DNA of 50,518 nucleotides, taken from positions 1 to 50,518 of IMG/VR virus record IMGVR_UViG_3300012683_000004. One strand, given 5' to 3'. A program made the position numbers and the translations under genes. The first letter of the stretch is position 1. Each line of letters opens with the position of its first letter. Positions 2,597 to 39,124 of this stretch are shown here, one piece after another. A model generated the notes under the pieces. The model searched no databases, was not told the DNA's origin, and saw only the letters and a list, made by a program, of their open reading frames with translations. The DNA comes from a virus.

Positions 2597-2780
2597 TTTC
2601 CGTCACCGTCCAGCCAAGGAGCTCAAGCTCATGTCTGACCCAGGACAGCTCACGGCCGTGAATTCTCTTATAGAGAATCGGCGCGCACCTTACCACGGCC
2701 TGCGTCATAGGATCTACTACAAATCCTACTACGCAGTTTTCGTTTTCAGCTCGGAAGAGTCTGAACTCGGGACCTTCCAT
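2586..2780 (-). CDS. Small hypothetical protein between polymerase and helicase genes
   Basis: A 64-residue protein starting at an ATG preceded by AAGGA, inside the last 52 bases of the polymerase gene in a different frame, and ending inside the start of the ATPase gene. It has alternating hydrophobic strands and an amphipathic C-terminal helix (HELELLGWTVTEI). Its position between two replication genes suggests a replication-associated role, but nothing in the sequence identifies one. Confidence 0.6.
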   Translation of the reverse strand: MEGPEFRLFRAENENCVVGFVVDPMTQAVVRCAPILYKRIHGRELSWVRHELELLGWTVTEIAR

Positions 2781-5101
2781 TTCCTCAGTCCTTCTGGGTT
2801 CTCGCCCGTTTTCTCGTTGAACTCGCCCCAGTTCTTCCCGACTTTCGCGTCGCTGGGGATTGTAAGAGTTCGTCCATGAATCTGGATAGGAATCTGCATA
2901 GCCTCCTGTACTGCTGGTACGACAGTTCCGACCTCAGATTCCTCGCACTGCCCCAGCACCGCGTCGTGCTCGTTAAGTAATATTTCCGCTCCTGGGACTT
3001 TAGAAGCAGCAAGCATTCCCATCTCACCGAGGATTCCGACAGTACACTGGGGCTGAAAGGCGATCGCTTCATTGAAGAAGTTGACGTTGTCCCACCTGCC
3101 GTAGAACTGCCTCCTCCACCCGAGCGGGGTTTCGAGGATCCTGTACTTGAGCGCTTGCCTGACTTCATTCCACCAGATCTCCTTGATCTCGGGATATAGC
3201 ATGAAATATGCCGTCTGCCCGTTTACGACGTCGCCGTACGCTAGTCTGATCCCGTCGGCAGCCGCAACTTTGATAATGCGATCCGGTCCCTCGCCGTAGT
3301 TCGAGCCGTGGACGATCCTCTTGACAGCGACACGCTTGTCCTCATCATAATAACCAAAGAAGCGAACTGAATTCTCTTTATGTATATCCCTCCCGCTCGC
3401 AAAGAGCTCGATAAGAGATTCGCATCTTGCCAGATATGCCACCACTCGTGCCTCGGCCTGAGAGAGATCGACGTAGAAGAGGACCTTTCCAGCGTCAGCA
3501 ATGAACATTCTGCGTAGCCTCGGCGGAATGTTCTGTAAGTTAGTCCCAGAACCGTATATGTTCGCTCGACTCGCCAGCCGCCCCGTTCGAGTACCTGTAG
3601 GATCGAACAGGCATCGCATTCTCCCGTCCGCGTCAATCTGAGCATCGAGATACCTCTCTATTAGGTCCCTTCTCTTCCGGATCTCCAGTATCGTCATGAG
3701 CACTGGATGATTGTACTTCCCAGCAAGTTCGACTATTGCGTCCTTATTGGCTGTGGGACGTTTAGTCTCGCGATGCAGCTTAACTGGCAACTTCAGCGTG
3801 TCATAGAGCAACTTGTGCATGTCAGGCGCCGACTTTACGTTCAGCGGCTTACCGGCCGACTTGTCGAGAAATGCCTGTAGATTAATGACCTCCTGAGTGT
3901 ATTGCTTCCTCAGCTCGTCTCGCAGTGGTAGGTCGATCTTGACGCCCCTTCTACTCATCTGTCTCAGCAGCGGCAAGATCGCCATCTCGTGCTCAAAGAC
4001 GTGGCGCACCTTGAAGGTGTCGAGCCCCTTCTCATGCGCGCTACGAATCTCTCCTGTGCAACAGGCGTCGTAGCCGTTGTATCTATAGAACATCGCCAGG
4101 TCGCCTGTCTCCTTCCACAGCTTCCCGTCGTCCTTGTAGAAGGGCTGCTTGGTATAGATGCTCACCTGGAAACCAAGGCCCTTCTTCAGCGGCGATGTCC
4201 CGCCCTGCTTCCCTCCTCTGAGCATCTTAACTTCGTCCCCACCTCCGGCCGCCTCCATAAGCAGCGCGTGATGCGAGAACATAATGTCCCACTGGAAGTT
4301 CACGACCTCGTAGCCGTTGTCCTCCAGTACTGTCAAGTCGTACTGTCCGAAGTTCTGCCCGCATTTCTTATTAGGAGAGGCGAGCAGCCTTCTGATAACA
4401 GCTTCTCCTCCAGGAGCGCTAGTAGGCACAACCAGAGCTCTTCCTGGATTATCGCTGAAGCCCACACATACAACTTCGTGTCTGTTTGTACCTGGTATCG
4501 TCTCGATATCGACTGAGAGCCACTCTGCATGGAACATCTCCTCGGCCCACTCTGCGGCTTCGGGCCACACTCGAATCTCGCGCTGTGGCAGAACGATCTC
4601 AGGAAACTTAACTTCCTCTGCCACTCGCTTCATGTCCAGCCGGATTAGAGCCCGGTTCTCATACTGCCTAAACACGCTGGCAGGATGGAACGTGGGCAGG
4701 ACTTTCTGGCCCTTGACTAGTGAGCACTCGAGCACCGACCCGCGATACTTGGTGATGCTGTGCTTATTGGTCAGAAATCTCAGCGGTACGTCACCAAGCG
4801 CCAGGACTAGGTTAGGTCTGATCTCCTCTATATCCTTCTTGAGCTGTACAATCCCGTACAGGAGGGCAGGATGCGGCTTCGGCTTGAGGAAGGTCTCGAA
4901 CTTGTTGGCGGGAGGGCGCTCGTGACAGACGTTCGTTACGAAGACGTCCGAGCGAGGGATGCCTACGGTGATAAGATAGTCATTGAGATCTTCACCCGAC
5001 GCACCAGAGAACGGCACGCCTGAGGCATCTTCCGTTGCCCCTGGGGCTTCGCCTACAACTAGTAGCTTAGCTGTCTTTGGGCCGGACTGTATTAGCCGCA
5101 C
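2729..5101 (-). CDS. Family A DNA polymerase with N-terminal uracil-DNA glycosylase domain
   Basis: A 790-residue multidomain enzyme that should copy the phage genome. Residues 1-165 are a family 4/5-type uracil-DNA glycosylase (VGEAPGATED, VTNVCHERPP, ALGDVPLRFL, PTFHPASVFR). Residues 190-370 are a DEDD 3'-5' exonuclease (LSVDIETIPG; NFGQYDLTVL; YNGYDACCT). Residues 380-790 are the PolI-type polymerase: motif A VDLSQAEARV near 542, O-helix KRIVHGSNYG near 594-603, motif C NEHDAVL near 708. A glycosylase-exonuclease-polymerase fusion is known from phages such as SPO1. The O-helix position equivalent to E. coli Phe762 is His, which is unusual. The upstream 18 bases separate it from the gene at 5120. 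Confidence 0.95.
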   Translation of the reverse strand: MRLIQSGPKTAKLLVVGEAPGATEDASGVPFSGASGEDLNDYLITVGIPRSDVFVTNVCHERPPANKFETFLKPKPHPALLYGIVQLKKDIEEIRPNLVLALGDVPLRFLTNKHSITKYRGSVLECSLVKGQKVLPTFHPASVFRQYENRALIRLDMKRVAEEVKFPEIVLPQREIRVWPEAAEWAEEMFHAEWLSVDIETIPGTNRHEVVCVGFSDNPGRALVVPTSAPGGEAVIRRLLASPNKKCGQNFGQYDLTVLEDNGYEVVNFQWDIMFSHHALLMEAAGGGDEVKMLRGGKQGGTSPLKKGLGFQVSIYTKQPFYKDDGKLWKETGDLAMFYRYNGYDACCTGEIRSAHEKGLDTFKVRHVFEHEMAILPLLRQMSRRGVKIDLPLRDELRKQYTQEVINLQAFLDKSAGKPLNVKSAPDMHKLLYDTLKLPVKLHRETKRPTANKDAIVELAGKYNHPVLMTILEIRKRRDLIERYLDAQIDADGRMRCLFDPTGTRTGRLASRANIYGSGTNLQNIPPRLRRMFIADAGKVLFYVDLSQAEARVVAYLARCESLIELFASGRDIHKENSVRFFGYYDEDKRVAVKRIVHGSNYGEGPDRIIKVAAADGIRLAYGDVVNGQTAYFMLYPEIKEIWWNEVRQALKYRILETPLGWRRQFYGRWDNVNFFNEAIAFQPQCTVGILGEMGMLAASKVPGAEILLNEHDAVLGQCEESEVGTVVPAVQEAMQIPIQIHGRTLTIPSDAKVGKNWGEFNEKTGENPEGLRKWKVPSSDSSELKTKTA

Positions 5102-6322: not shown

Positions 6323-7570
6323 TCACGCGGACCTCGCTTCGTCGTCTGGTGTCCATGCTTTCACCTTTTTGATGGCAACTGATCGTCTAGCTGGATCAAG
6401 CTCACACCCCCAATACTCCCGCTGAAGTGACGTAGCCGCTGCTGGAACTGAGCCAGATCCAACGAAGAAATCGGCCACAGTCTCGCCAGGTACTGTAAGT
6501 CGCCTGATAAGCTCTTGATAGAGTTCCACTGGACGTTCAACCAGTAGATCTCGCTCATCACCCGGTACGGGGGCGAAGCGTAGTACATTCGGCAATCCCC
6601 TCTGTATCATCTGCGGCTCGCCTTTCAGACAGTGGAGCGCCATGTCGTAGCCACGCGCAAAATACCTGTCTGGTCTTGCTGTATAACAGCGCCCGTCCGA
6701 GCGATCCCAGATGACAGGCATTTCGTCAACGACGAATCCAGCTGCGCGAAAAGCAATCTTAGCCCGTTCGTACCAGGTAGGACCAAGAAACCAAATGAGC
6801 CAGCCGTCGGACTTGAGAACTCTATATAGCTCCGGTGCCATTCCAAGTAGGCGGAGGTAAGACTTCTCGTCGTCCTGGTACGCTGTAACCGCTTGCTCAG
6901 TTCCTGCCTTTCGGCTGTCGTAGTCAATTCCGAACGGAGGGTCAGTAAGGACAAGACGAAACATTCCCTCAGGCAGTCGCTTAATGACTTCGACAGAGTC
7001 ACCGAGGAGTATCTTTTCCTCGATCTCTTTAAACTCAGCAGGATTGTCTTTGACGTCTTTGACTCTCGAGACACTTGCCACCTTAGCGAGAGCCCACGAC
7101 CTGGCTTGGTTAATGCTCTTGGCATCCTTCAGCTCCGGGAAGATGTCCATTAGATGAGACAGCTTGACTGCCTCCTGGACTCTCTCCCGTTCCGTGCTGG
7201 CGACCTGGGCAGTCATGGCAGTCGACCAGTTCGGGTCGATCTTCTTCTTGAGCTTGTCGAGTTCGGCAAGGGCCTTGACCCGCTCCTGCCAGGTCATCTG
7301 CTCGCGCTGGATGTTCTCCTCAAGCTCGATCTCTTTCTTCTGCAGGTCGGTCAGGTTCGATAGTCGCTCGAAGCGAATAGCTTTCCAGCCGAGTAGCTTT
7401 GCGGCCGTCAACCTCCGAAATCCTGCTACTAGCACGTCGAAGTCGTCGAGGATGATAGGCTGTAGCAGCCCGAACTTATCGAGCGATTGCTTCAACCCCT
7501 CCATATCGCCTGTCGCTCCGCGAAACCTTCCTGCTTCCACGGTGACGGCAGCCAGTTCGATCTCAGCCAC
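6323..7570 (-). CDS. ParB-like domain fused to N4/N6 DNA methyltransferase
   Basis: 415 residues. Residues 1-110 form a ParB/Srx-type domain (DKFGLLQPIIL, VLVAGFRRLTAAKLLGW, ELEENIQREQMTW). Residues 195-405 form a DNA adenine/cytosine-N4 methyltransferase with catalytic DPPF (LVLTDPPFGIDYD near 210) and a C-terminal S-adenosylmethionine site (DFFVGSGS near 372), an order typical of the beta class. It should methylate phage DNA, possibly to evade host restriction; no partner nuclease is seen, so it is likely an orphan. The target sequence cannot be read from the gene. The start overlaps the upstream gene by eight bases. Confidence 0.9.
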   Translation of the reverse strand: MAEIELAAVTVEAGRFRGATGDMEGLKQSLDKFGLLQPIILDDFDVLVAGFRRLTAAKLLGWKAIRFERLSNLTDLQKKEIELEENIQREQMTWQERVKALAELDKLKKKIDPNWSTAMTAQVASTERERVQEAVKLSHLMDIFPELKDAKSINQARSWALAKVASVSRVKDVKDNPAEFKEIEEKILLGDSVEVIKRLPEGMFRLVLTDPPFGIDYDSRKAGTEQAVTAYQDDEKSYLRLLGMAPELYRVLKSDGWLIWFLGPTWYERAKIAFRAAGFVVDEMPVIWDRSDGRCYTARPDRYFARGYDMALHCLKGEPQMIQRGLPNVLRFAPVPGDERDLLVERPVELYQELIRRLTVPGETVADFFVGSGSVPAAATSLQREYWGCELDPARRSVAIKKVKAWTPDDEARSA

Positions 7571-34653: not shown

Positions 34654-34883
34654 TGCTAGTAGCTAACAACATAGGTCCGGGAGGAACGTTCTTAGGCGGC
34701 GGTATCATGGCTCGCGGTTCATTGTTGCTTGGAATCAGCAATACCATGATAATCGCGGGCTTTAGCGCATCTGCCCATATCATGCAGTGCATGGAGGGCG
34801 TCGGCGCATTTGCGCTACGTCGGCATAGAGGCAAGTTCGGTGGTACTCAGCCGCAACTGGCGTTTGACAGAGAGAGGCAGTAG
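34650..34883 (+). CDS. Small glycine-rich protein
   Basis: 77 residues from GTG 34650 or ATG 34653. Gly/Met/Ala-rich with possible short hydrophobic spans (GSLLLGISNTMIIAGFSASA) and a basic C-terminus. It overlaps genes on both sides. Unknown. Confidence 0.5.
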   Translation: MMLVANNIGPGGTFLGGGIMARGSLLLGISNTMIIAGFSASAHIMQCMEGVGAFALRRHRGKFGGTQPQLAFDRERQ

Positions 34884-37800
34884 TGCCCTCTAAGTATCAG
34901 ATACCGATTCGATTCAAGTCACTGGTTACGCCACTGTTTCCAGTGTCTATCGTGGTATTTGCGCTACCGATAGCAGCAACACAACTCCCTCCGAATGTAA
35001 TAAGCGTTGCTCCTATTGCCGCTCCGTCGGCAGCAGTAGCTGCTCCAGTCGTATACAGCTATCCAGCTCAGCTGGAAGAAAAGTCTCCGTTTAGGCCGAT
35101 CTTCGTTCGAGTGCTGGCGCCTGGTGTCAGCTTCATTGTTCCGCGGCCGATCATATACAGCTATCCACCATTCGTAAGCACGGCTTCGCCTATCTTCGTG
35201 CGAGCTGTGCCGCCAGTGCAACAGCTGACGCCGAATGCGCCTCCGATAAGGGTGTACGGCTATCCAGCGCCACTAGTTAATAGGGCTGCATTTGACGTTA
35301 AGATAGTGCAACCTGTACCGTTGCCGCCGGTATTCGTACCGACTGTCAACGTTGTGAACGTAGCTATACCGACGACTGCTATCAACACGACGTTCCAGGT
35401 CGCGCACGGGCTATCGCAGATTCCTCAGATTGTGCTGGCTACGCTATCGGGACGGACAGAGGGCGCTAACACGAACGGGAGGCAGCATACCAAGAAGGGC
35501 TTCGGCGCTGCGGTTCTACCACGAGGTGGGGTACTGAAGCAGTACTGCGTAGGTAGCGACTCGGATGACAATAACTCCGTGACGCTAGCAAGCTCCTCGT
35601 TCGAGCCGAACATAGCGTGCGTCATGGCACCTGGAAAGGACCCGAACAGCAAGACGATTGCTGGGGCGTGCGCCATTCAGTCGATAGACGCCACGAACAT
35701 CACGTTCGTTATCAAGACACAGTTCGACCAGAGCTACGAGCTGTTCTTGCAGGTGTTCTCCGGCGACTTGAATATCACCTGGCTAAAGATACAAGACTAT
35801 CAGGCTCCTCTAGCAACAGGCACCCAGGCCATTACAGGAGTCGGGTTCAAGCCAGATTTTGTTCTGTTCTTTGGCCCACATCTGAGCCAGGGTGCTACGC
35901 AAGTCGACCTTGAGGGCGGTAGCGGGATGTTCCTCGGGGCGTGTGACAAGAATCTGAACCAGTGGACGCTAGCTAGTGGCGTGAACGACAACGGTGGCGG
36001 TAGTGCGCCGTCGTCGGCAGGACGAGCTAGAAGTTACATGAGAAGTGGCCAGGCACTCGGTATACTGAGTCGCGATCATAGTGCGTTCAACTCGATAGGG
36101 TCAGTTCAGAGCCTAGACGCAGACGGCTTCACGCTTAACTGGACTATCAGTCTGGACTCTGGACAGTTGACAGGACGCGAGTTCGTTGCGCTATGTGTGC
36201 AGGGGCCAGTGTTCGTGGTGGGTAACTACCTATCCCAGACGGATACGGCTGAGCACCAGGTCGTGAGTGGCATAACTCCTCCAGAGGGGCTACTCATAGC
36301 TAGCGCGAATAAGCCAGCTTCGGCGCTCAACGTACTCGACAGTAACGAGAACTGGTCAGTCGCATTCTGTAAGGACAAGACAGTTCAGCTAGCGCAGTAC
36401 GTTGGACAGAAGGATACCCCGTGGGCTCCGAACACGGTAGCCTACACCGGTATTGAGTATGATGGTAGCTACTTGAATCTCGACACGGCCGGTGCGGTAG
36501 TTGGCAAGGCGGCCGTCTCGACTATCGCCGCGGACGGATTCAAGATCACACATAGCGTAGCCGATGCTGCACAGAACTTTGTTGGCTACGTGGCCTATGC
36601 ACATCCTACACCTCCGGCGATTAGGACGACTGTTATCAAGACAGTCAAGCCTAACGGTGGTGGAGACTATCTCAATCTGAACACAGGAATTCAGACTGAG
36701 GTGCTTAGTCATAAGAATCTGTATCTCGAGAACATCATCCTAGAGTTCGACTGCTATGCCGGTACGGACTCTATGGCGGTTAAGTTCCCGAGCGCCAGCG
36801 ACGCGACGACGGCCGGAAAGGGCTTCATCTCTAGTCCATCTAACTACGTCTACGTGAAAGCTGTTCAAGGTCACGTGGGGTTGATGGACTACAGTGGGAG
36901 TACGTATCTACTCGACCTTGTGAGCACACATAGCTCGAGACCGTTCCAGATGAACATGGAGAACATCTTCCTCGAGCAGCTCCAGATTCGTCTGACGGTC
37001 AGCGACGGTACCGAGGGCGCAGCCTACTCGATGGCGACGTTTGGCCTTGTCGCACCGACGCTGTGGATAATGAAGAACTGCATTGCCAAGGCAGTGCTCT
37101 CGAACAACTCAACTGCGTTCGGCTTCGAGCCACCTAATATACAGTTCGACGTGGCAGGAGTTAAGGCGTACCATATCAACTGTATTGCATACGACTTCTT
37201 GAGTCGTGACAACCAGTTCAGTGGGTTCCAGACGTACAACTGCGGCAACCAGCTGATAGTCCATCTGAACTGCACAGCTGTGAACTGTCAGCAGGGATAC
37301 CAGGACCACGCTGATGTGATAGATCTGAACTGTGCTGCGCTAGGATGCGATAACGGCTGGAACACGGCGCTTGCAGCTACGCACCCTGGGCCGAACCCGC
37401 TAAGCGATTACAACTTTAGCACGACTGGCCCGCCGTCAATAGGAGAAGTGGGTCTACCTGGCACTGATCTCGAGGTCGCTGTCGATCCACACGGTCCGCA
37501 TAGCGGAGGCGGACAGGCTGCGTACTTGCAGGATCTACTCAACGGAGTGCCGATACCCCTACCTGGTGACACCGGCCTTATCGGAAAGGGCGTTAACCTA
37601 TCGGCCAATCCGTACTTCCCATTCAATGTGGACGTACGAAACACAGTACGCACTGTGCCGTGGACAATAGGCGCTTTCCATGTTAGCGCTGCCGCTCCAG
37701 TAGTGCAGGGTGTGTGGTGGGCGTGGGTAGGAGGCGTTACTGATACGCAGGCGACGGTAAAGATTAGGCTGAACGCGGCCTCTGGAGCTGTCAGACTGCG

Positions 37801-39124
37801 AGTTTCGCCGAATCCAACCCTTGTAGGATACACAGAGTACGGTGACGTGGCCACTAATGCCAATAAAGTAGCCACTTTCATTGTCCTTGTAGGCCACGAT
37901 ACACAGTATTACTACCAAGTCTTCATTGGCGGCCTAGCAGTCGGCCCCATTGGGACCTTTAAGAGCTTCCCGCTACTGTCGCAGCCGGCTTCTTTCGTAT
38001 TCGCATGCGGAGGTTGCGCTGAAACTGGCTCGAATACGAATCTTTACACGACTTTGAAGAACCAGAATCCGCTGCTCTACCTAGTTTACGGCGATCTTCA
38101 CTACTGGAACATACTAAACAACGACGTAACGCTGTTCCGTGGAGCGTTCGACGCTGCGATGATCGCCAAAAGGCGTGCTTTGTTCCTGTCTTGCTCGTCA
38201 GATTACGTCTGGGACGACCACGACTTCGGAGCGGATAACACGAGCGGCACCAGTCCGGCCAAACCAGCAGCGCAGGCGGCATATCGAGAGAACTTCCCGG
38301 CCTACGCGCTACCATCGGTAGACGGATCTATCTACCACTCGTTCATAGTGGGTCGCTGTCGGTTTGTCGTGACAGATTTGCGCTCAAATCGCGATGCAGA
38401 CTTCAATCCAGATGGACCTACGCACGTGATGATGGGCGCGACTCAGTTACAGTGGTTCAAGGACCAGCTGATGGCGGCAAAGAGCGCTAAGCAGCTAGTG
38501 TTCTGGTTCTCGACAGTGCCCTGGATAGCGCCGGTGGGCGACAACTTCTCTGACGACTGGGGCGGGTTCGCAACTGAGCGGAAGAATATCAGCGATTTCA
38601 TACAGGCGAACGGTCTTGCGAGTACTCTTATCATCGTGTGTGGTGATATGCACTCGGCAGCGATAGATAACGGCACGCACGATGTCTATACGACTGACGG
38701 CCTAGGCAATCACTGTACAGTGTTCTTGCCGTTCCCCGAGAACCAGACGACACAGATCTACGGCGGCGTGTATACTCAGGGCCCGCTAGCTCACGTTGGC
38801 GCGAGGCTAATGGGCTTTGCGGGGCTAGTGCACGTCACTGACGATAGCCACGTGATCACTGTCACTATGGAGGTCTGGAACGAACTCGGACCTCAGCTAA
38901 CGTTTACGAAGGCGTTTAGCCTCGAGGCTTGCTTCCCAGTAGTAACGTGGCAGATAGACCCTGTCACAGCAGGAGTAAGTGGCGTAGCCTCGTCGTTCAC
39001 AAAGCTCTCAGCCGGCGCTGTGCCCGCATTCACACCGGTTGGCCTATCAGTTCCAGTAAAAACTAAGATCACCCCAGCAGGCACGACGTTCACGCACGTC
39101 ACTGGAGTTGATCCATGTCTATGA
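34883..39124 (+). CDS. Giant tail/receptor protein with beta-helix and PhoD-like phosphatase domain
   Basis: 1413 residues. Residues 1-165: Pro/Val-rich repeats with YSYP-type motifs (VVYSYPAQL, IIYSYPPFV, RVYGYPAPL). Residues 170-580: three related beta domains (FQVAHGLSQIPQIVLAT, ITGVGFKPDFVLFFGP, VVSGITPPEGLLIAS). Residues 583-900: right-handed beta-helix (KTVKPNGGGDYLNLNTG, LNCTAVNCQQGYQDH). Residues 938-1350: Fn3/PhoD_N-like beta domain (GVWWAWVGGVTDTQATVKIRL) then a PhoD-type metallophosphatase with FACGGCAE, VYGDLHYWN, VWDDHDFGAD and CGDMHSA. It likely binds the host surface and hydrolyses phosphodiester or phosphomonoester bonds there, such as in teichoic acid or surface polysaccharide. 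Ends in a nine-base overlap with the adaptor gene. Confidence 0.85.
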   Translation: MPSKYQIPIRFKSLVTPLFPVSIVVFALPIAATQLPPNVISVAPIAAPSAAVAAPVVYSYPAQLEEKSPFRPIFVRVLAPGVSFIVPRPIIYSYPPFVSTASPIFVRAVPPVQQLTPNAPPIRVYGYPAPLVNRAAFDVKIVQPVPLPPVFVPTVNVVNVAIPTTAINTTFQVAHGLSQIPQIVLATLSGRTEGANTNGRQHTKKGFGAAVLPRGGVLKQYCVGSDSDDNNSVTLASSSFEPNIACVMAPGKDPNSKTIAGACAIQSIDATNITFVIKTQFDQSYELFLQVFSGDLNITWLKIQDYQAPLATGTQAITGVGFKPDFVLFFGPHLSQGATQVDLEGGSGMFLGACDKNLNQWTLASGVNDNGGGSAPSSAGRARSYMRSGQALGILSRDHSAFNSIGSVQSLDADGFTLNWTISLDSGQLTGREFVALCVQGPVFVVGNYLSQTDTAEHQVVSGITPPEGLLIASANKPASALNVLDSNENWSVAFCKDKTVQLAQYVGQKDTPWAPNTVAYTGIEYDGSYLNLDTAGAVVGKAAVSTIAADGFKITHSVADAAQNFVGYVAYAHPTPPAIRTTVIKTVKPNGGGDYLNLNTGIQTEVLSHKNLYLENIILEFDCYAGTDSMAVKFPSASDATTAGKGFISSPSNYVYVKAVQGHVGLMDYSGSTYLLDLVSTHSSRPFQMNMENIFLEQLQIRLTVSDGTEGAAYSMATFGLVAPTLWIMKNCIAKAVLSNNSTAFGFEPPNIQFDVAGVKAYHINCIAYDFLSRDNQFSGFQTYNCGNQLIVHLNCTAVNCQQGYQDHADVIDLNCAALGCDNGWNTALAATHPGPNPLSDYNFSTTGPPSIGEVGLPGTDLEVAVDPHGPHSGGGQAAYLQDLLNGVPIPLPGDTGLIGKGVNLSANPYFPFNVDVRNTVRTVPWTIGAFHVSAAAPVVQGVWWAWVGGVTDTQATVKIRLNAASGAVRLRVSPNPTLVGYTEYGDVATNANKVATFIVLVGHDTQYYYQVFIGGLAVGPIGTFKSFPLLSQPASFVFACGGCAETGSNTNLYTTLKNQNPLLYLVYGDLHYWNILNNDVTLFRGAFDAAMIAKRRALFLSCSSDYVWDDHDFGADNTSGTSPAKPAAQAAYRENFPAYALPSVDGSIYHSFIVGRCRFVVTDLRSNRDADFNPDGPTHVMMGATQLQWFKDQLMAAKSAKQLVFWFSTVPWIAPVGDNFSDDWGGFATERKNISDFIQANGLASTLIIVCGDMHSAAIDNGTHDVYTTDGLGNHCTVFLPFPENQTTQIYGGVYTQGPLAHVGARLMGFAGLVHVTDDSHVITVTMEVWNELGPQLTFTKAFSLEACFPVVTWQIDPVTAGVSGVASSFTKLSAGAVPAFTPVGLSVPVKTKITPAGTTFTHVTGVDPCL

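Follow-up and report, generated by a model that had tools for sequence, protein, structure and literature searches.

What would a phage do with a PhoD-type phosphatase built into the end of a very long protein that is encoded among its structural genes? The question arises in the window, by which we mean the whole stretch of DNA analysed here, a 50,518-base IMG/VR virus record. Its reading frame 34883-39124 (+) is complete and uninterrupted, starts with GTG and encodes 1413 amino acids. An initial annotation had called the product a tail protein that joins a beta-helix to a PhoD-like phosphatase, and had proposed a fused receptor-binding depolymerase for a phosphate-linked surface polymer. A fused receptor-binding and phosphate-ester-cleaving protein is also the best reading of the analysis reported here, with a substrate, an activity and a location in the virion that we infer.

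Genome setting and layout of the protein

Terminase, portal and major capsid matches lie upstream of the frame, and a tail/structural protein is encoded directly downstream. After it comes a virion structural protein with a single phage hit, to a protein described as a stabilization protein. Judged from these matches the operon is structural and podovirus-like. Since head genes precede the PhoD gene and tail genes follow it, it sits at the head-tail boundary; the earlier label "tail protein" is therefore tentative, and the product could be either a spike or a head fibre. This gene order is kept in the two homologous loci L013 and L003. DNA-level comparison with cultured phages gave no close relative, and the terminase and portal matches are too distant to name a host. 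Elsewhere in the window, on the minus strand, 2729-5101 encodes a DNA polymerase A whose N-terminal domain belongs to the uracil-DNA glycosylase superfamily (UDG 6-149, PolA 396-760), and 6323-7570 encodes an N6/N4 DNA methylase fused to a ParB_N domain.

The record is metagenome-derived and has no cultured close relative, as might be expected if assembly or gene calling had joined unrelated genes. However, homologues from other metagenomes, L002 (95% identical), L013 (1402 amino acids, full-length, 66% identical over residues 1-1397) and L003 (47%), share the architecture, and the frames are open throughout. Compared with L002, omega is 0.036 over the whole frame and 0.048 over the catalytic core, and all ligands are the same; by this measure the frame is under strong purifying selection. 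Because independent contigs show the same architecture, an artefact is refuted for that architecture, and we regard it as extremely improbable. L013 starts MPSKYQIPIRFK at the point that matches the window's VPSKYQIPIRFK, which supports the GTG start.

Table 1. Features of the PhoD-containing reading frame, in window coordinates (BsPhoD, Bacillus subtilis PhoD).
Feature	Position	Strand	Basis
Whole frame, spike/fibre-like with C-terminal PhoD domain	34883..39124	+	Homologues L013, L003; omega vs L002
Residues 1-160, Pro-rich hydrophobic N-terminal region	34883..35362	+	Common to L013, L003; missing in L004, L112
Residues 161-575, beta-rich domain(s)	35363..36607	+	PhoD-less copy in podovirus ctptF532; model 1 strands
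Residues 576-937, probable right-handed beta-helix, capped N-terminally by a helix	36608..37693	+	Strand pattern; Pme8A match
Residues 938-1032, FN3-like PhoD_N / purple-acid-phosphatase N-terminal domain	37694..37978	+	Models; PhoD_N hits in homologues
Residues 1033-1353, PhoD-type metallophosphoesterase catalytic domain	37979..38941	+	Pfam, PHROG, PDB profile, AlphaFold2, Foldseek
Cys1045, equivalent of BsPhoD Fe3+ ligand Cys180; Asp in L006	38015..38017	+	Alignment
Asp1071 and Tyr1074, equivalents of BsPhoD Asp207 and Tyr210	38093..38104	+	Alignment
Asp1111-Asp1112, equivalents of BsPhoD Asp265-Asp266	38213..38218	+	Conserved 39/39
Asp1118-Asn1119, probable Ca ligands (Asn271-Asn272)	38234..38239	+	One-residue loop shift; alignment register uncertain by one
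Residues 1144-1148, insertion loop	38312..38326	+	Alignment to L004/L005, L112
Asp1255 and His1257 (GDMH), equivalents of BsPhoD Asp436 and His438	38645..38653	+	Conserved 39/39
Residues 1354-1413, C-terminal tail, outside model	38942..39121	+	

The N-terminal region (Table 1) is a possible virion anchor, or it may be a leader; its maximum 12-residue Kyte-Doolittle mean within the first 60 residues is 2.6, which scores like a leader by a simple hydrophobicity rule. The beta-rich part that follows recurs (26.6%, 5e-22) in an 886-amino-acid protein of podovirus ctptF532, which has no PhoD domain and carries its own N-terminal beta-helix, with Pfam hits, ahead of the shared domain. Profile comparison found no internal repeat within residues 161-575, and FAP42_B3 and DUF7654, weak Pfam hits under their cut-offs in the middle part of the protein, were dismissed.

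The beta-helix proposed by the initial annotation is upheld in part. In the model residues 576-937 have an N-cap helix and short strands at regular spacing, and a Foldseek search with the model of residues 576-1353 matched the pectin methylesterase Pme8A (probability 0.85, E 0.05; the covered residues are not displayed); against this, Pfam finds nothing in the helix regions of window-family proteins, and the pLDDT of residues 576-937 is mostly 45-69, lower in places and below 50 after about residue 828. We conclude that this region is probably a right-handed beta-helix, a prediction with moderate support. It was recovered in one of ten other viral records tested, that of L112. With such a body the window protein, itself large and encoded in a structural operon, would resemble beta-helical tailspike depolymerases. 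It differs from them in having a metallophosphoesterase as its catalytic domain, and a known signature of a glycosidase or lyase was not found in it.

The PhoD domain and its active site

The identity of the last third of the protein is much clearer, since profile, structural and active-site comparisons agree on residues 938-1353 being a PhoD-family metallophosphoesterase. Pfam PhoD (PF09423) covers residues 1107-1267 (3.5e-15, 56.4 bits against a cut-off of 27 bits), PHROG 24476 "phosphodiesterase" covers residues 944-1269 (7.8e-53), and the best PDB relative, found with a profile of five phage homologues, is B. subtilis PhoD (2YEQ, 9.4e-20). An AlphaFold2 model of residues 576-1353, built on 39 sequences, has a pLDDT mostly above 85 in the PhoD domain, with block means of 82-98 across most of 945-1353 that fall to 72-76 in a few blocks towards the end. 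Its best Foldseek match is 2YEQ (E 3.5e-20, probability 1.00), with plant purple acid phosphatases next, which bears out the fold that had been predicted. A longer model (model 1; residues 160-1353, 8 sequences, mean pLDDT 55) was used for its matches to PAP-like and FN3-like folds only. The beta domain ahead of the catalytic core, which had been likened to PhoD_N, is indeed FN3-like as in PhoD_N (FN3 hits, probability 1.00).

The four motifs on which the earlier assignment had been based are present as described, GGC at residue 1043, YGDLHYW at 1069, WDDHD at 1110 and GDMHS at 1254, and alignment finds equivalents of all BsPhoD ligand positions: C1045, D1071, Y1074 and H1257 for the Fe3+ site, and D1111, D1112, D1118/N1119 (register uncertain by one) and D1255 for the Ca2+ site. 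Y1074 and H1257, the equivalents of Tyr210 and His438, we take to be metal ligands from the alignment and from general knowledge of the PAP/PhoD site. D1071, D1111, D1112, D1255 and H1257 are invariant among the 39 aligned proteins; position 1045 is Cys in 32 of the 39 and Asp in four, including the phage homologue L006. Substitution of C180, D207, D265, D266, N271, N272 or D436 abolished or strongly reduced the activity of BsPhoD, and two PhoD subfamilies with Cys or Asp at the Fe site have been described (PMC4223295). The Asp of L006 is in itself a natural switch between the two subfamilies inside one phage clade.

The window protein and BsPhoD share the fold, the FN3-like N-terminal domain, the positions of the Fe3+ and Ca2+ ligands and the Cys at the Fe site; they differ in that the window protein has one extra residue in the DDHD loop, a spike-like phage fusion and no BsPhoD-like capping helix in the modelled part (576-1353), so its active site would be left open. 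As far as sequence and model can tell, the PhoD domain is apparently intact as a predicted enzyme.

Three related classes of enzyme were considered and set aside. A true purple acid phosphatase (PAP) is ruled out, as WDDHD replaces the PAP His/Asn second-metal set and the ligands follow PhoD. GDPD is likewise ruled out, as there is no Pfam GDPD hit and the fold is that of a metallophosphatase rather than a TIM-barrel; the tail-associated GDPD lysins of enterococcal phages (PMC10194240) are a functional parallel, virion phosphodiesterases predicted to attack teichoic acid, but their fold and catalytic residues differ and the window protein is not a member of that group. Finally, the calcineurin-type anti-defence phosphoesterase of mycobacteriophages (Gp48, PMC12287305) belongs to another metallophosphoesterase branch, and no link to it was found.

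An intact fold could still have been kept as a binding module. The protein would then be an adhesin or a head fibre, recognising phosphorylated glycans with no need to turn them over. Relative to the tail genes, its gene lies on the head side, the phage YongM homologue adjoins a "capsid fiber" gene and the Hortus1 homologue lies between major capsid and head-to-tail genes, all of which would suit such a role. However, every catalytic ligand is kept, including the Cys/Asp alternatives, and purifying selection is strong, and we consider a pure binding role improbable.

Relatives and a nested insertion

PhoD proteins of phages are already known; what is new is the beta-helix spike architecture of the window family. 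The initial annotation had considered the fusion unusual for a virion protein, and this holds for the fusion rather than for its enzyme: PhoD/PAP-like domains occur in Streptomyces, Microbacterium and Thermobifida phages, in cyanophages and in at least 64 non-redundant IMG/VR proteins, whereas the beta-helix fusion is found in one small family, with the nested insertion described below in its relatives. Proteins annotated as PhoD, "purple acid phosphatase" or "phosphodiesterase" (YongM, Dfl-JY23, Elbi, P1312, Tomas, Microbacterium EK/EG; PHROG 24476, 13624, 25497) have the same PhoD domain and, like the window protein, are large and often encoded beside tail or head genes; they are usually leaderless. 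They are only 26-34% identical to it, fall in separate tree clades and had no beta-helix that we could find, and in P1312-type proteins PhoD is N-terminal rather than C-terminal.

In a maximum-likelihood tree the PhoD domains of the window family and of L006, a homologue with helix and PhoD only, form one clade (100/99) apart from those of cyanophages, actinophages and Streptomyces/Microbacterium phages, and such separate clades fit several separate captures. The nearest chromosomal homologues (about 35-38% identical) are from Verrucomicrobiota, Zixibacteria and Acidobacteriota. Among the relatives found, sequence comparison confines the beta-helix and PhoD fusion to this one small phage family.

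Two more distant members, L004=L005 (about 50% identical to the window protein; 1739 amino acids, L004/L110) and the divergent L112 (about 42%; 1713 amino acids), carry a segment of about 520 residues inside the PhoD domain. It falls exactly between window residues 1144 and 1148 and leaves both PhoD halves intact. The two inserts, recovered from different metagenomes, are clear homologues of one another and thus do not reflect a single misassembly. By eye the insert opens with a beta-rich-looking stretch, and a later segment resembles the DUF1565-type helix of ctptF532 ("FYVSPTGG...DPWSL...RGGTY"). Since Pfam gives no hit on the insert, we infer its beta-helical nature from this resemblance; the nested second module is apparently beta-helical.

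Phage PhoD proteins and the likely role of the enzyme

Published work on soil phages treats phoD as an auxiliary gene for phosphorus acquisition, the most numerous such gene in the survey, whose product is modelled as expressed and released; one such protein, PhoD22, is active on pNPP (PMC10987575). Scanning viral contigs yielded 76 loci, and these, together with a small number of earlier loci, reduced to 64 non-redundant PhoD proteins, which were compared (viral loci L108-L179, chromosomal loci L028-L107) with 78 chromosomal proteins collected with a closely similar pattern, after removal of prophage L047. Median length is 812 amino acids in the viral set and 471 in the chromosomal set. A leader-like segment, called by the simple hydrophobicity rule in place of a signal-peptide predictor, is present in 6 of 64 viral and 63 of 78 chromosomal proteins. 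The chromosomal count takes in PhoD on membrane domains, so that there the term covers any hydrophobic export or membrane segment; the window family is itself part of the viral counts, and its long members L013 and L003 score leader-like. L004, L112 and most phage homologues have no such segment. C-terminal extensions of at least 150 residues (45/64 viral, 3/78 chromosomal) and a PhoD domain no more than 15 residues from the longest possible start (33/64 and 2/78) separate the sets as well, and all the differences survive clustering at 50% identity (Fisher p 0.003, 6e-8, 7e-6). Among the 50 immediate upstream neighbours the commonest family is PHROG 5313 (15 members, no description), and many of the other families that recur are those of tail fibres, collagen-like minor tail proteins or virion structural proteins. 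Phage PhoD proteins are thus long, mostly leaderless and commonly encoded beside tail or virion genes, which argues against a secreted phosphorus-acquisition enzyme and for a virion-borne one.

These findings bear directly on the auxiliary-gene idea, in which the window PhoD would be made during infection and exported or released to free phosphate from organic phosphorus for the infected host. The published model, the pNPP activity, the abundance of phoD in the survey and the hydrophobic N-terminus of the window protein all agree with it; however, the window gene has a spike-like domain fusion and a structural-operon position, most phage PhoDs are leaderless, long and multidomain, unlike the chromosomal ones, and many of their neighbours are tail genes. 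For the window gene we think it unlikely.

Work on cultured phages bears on the location of the protein as well. When a YongM phage preparation was analysed by LC-MS/MS, the "alkaline phosphatase D" had the seventh-highest score, but the sample was a concentrated lysate in which non-virion proteins were detected too (PMC8875764). In P1312 the PhoD gene directly follows those for the tape measure and a tail protein; the excerpted P1312 virion table gives no mass-spectrometry coverage for the homologue, nor for the neighbouring tail protein (PMC4569894). The authors of that study predicted a signal peptide and suggested DNA degradation or teichoic-acid cleavage, as well as cell-wall anchoring with superinfection exclusion (PMC4569894); the signal peptide is doubtful, because the PhoD fold is already under way by about residue 6. 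Their last suggestion is one form of a late role, in which the enzyme would act at the end of infection, in superinfection exclusion or in freeing progeny from phosphorylated debris, and not at entry. The general lack of leaders among the homologues and the structural-operon position speak against this, and we consider it quite improbable. EK1 phages have a PAP or a phosphoesterase at the corresponding place, or lack the region (PMC13014141), as for a swappable host-contact module. A one-base deletion (frameshift) in a cyanophage alkaline phosphatase D gene is tolerated (PMC11356776), and the authors of the Rowlf study call the function of such a gene in phage unknown (PMC12352085). Among the open-licence literature we found no paper on PhoD together with phage, virion and tail.

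With a probability of roughly 0.6, we favour the reading that the window protein is a virion-borne spike or fibre, the last third of which would be a working PhoD-type Fe3+/Ca2+ phosphoesterase that cuts phosphoesters of an envelope polymer at adsorption. The N-terminal and beta-rich parts would attach it to the particle, the probable beta-helix would form a shaft or a body that binds glycans, and the enzyme at the C-terminus, positioned at the host surface, would hydrolyse phosphoester or phosphodiester groups of a teichoic-acid-like polymer, a phosphorylated capsule or LPS. This reading is favoured because fold and ligands are kept, the Cys-to-Asp change matches known PhoD subfamilies and omega is low; because the gene has head genes (portal, major capsid protein) on one side and tail genes on the other, with synteny kept in L013 and L003; because a podovirus protein has the 161-575 domain too, there preceded by a different beta-helix; and because of the differences between viral and chromosomal proteins, the upstream neighbour families, the YongM LC-MS/MS, the EK1 variation and the PhoD22 activity. 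Against it stand the P1312 homologue, without coverage in the excerpted table, the lysate nature of the YongM sample, the tolerated cyanophage deletion, the leader-like hydrophobic N-terminus of the window protein and the low confidence of its helix.

More broadly, we see about an even chance that phage phoD genes mainly encode virion-associated enzymes that attack the envelope, built here into a beta-helix spike and in some members holding a nested, apparently beta-helical module in the catalytic domain, which would make a two-module spike around one active site. From the approximately 60 related phage proteins compared, many "phosphorus-scavenging" phage phoD genes may be virus-particle parts. 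Soil virome studies count phage phoD as evidence of viral help in host phosphorus gain; if most phage PhoDs are particle parts, that ecological conclusion needs revision as far as this gene is concerned, and phosphorylated surface polymers would be receptors or barriers for many uncultured phages. This wider point, that phage phoD genes resemble virion rather than nutrient genes, is the more valuable result and is directly testable. A phosphoesterase fused to, and interrupted by, spike-like modules could also serve as an envelope-modifying tool.

Several other unusual PhoD proteins were seen in the course of the comparison. In four Actinomycetota (L037, L042, L044, L049) a chromosomal PhoD domain is joined to membrane domains of the PAP2 type, to give an apparent double phosphatase; three of these four proteins also have DUF7670. 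A Verrucomicrobiales MAG (L032:2322-6335) has prolyl oligopeptidase and PhoD in one 1338-amino-acid frame, and a Zixibacteria MAG (L030:4296-6413) has a PhoD with a weak C-terminal dockerin match. The Nocardiopsis lucentensis contig L047 and the IMG/VR record L150 apparently hold the same prophage-like stretch, with a PhoD protein that carries a carbohydrate-binding domain.
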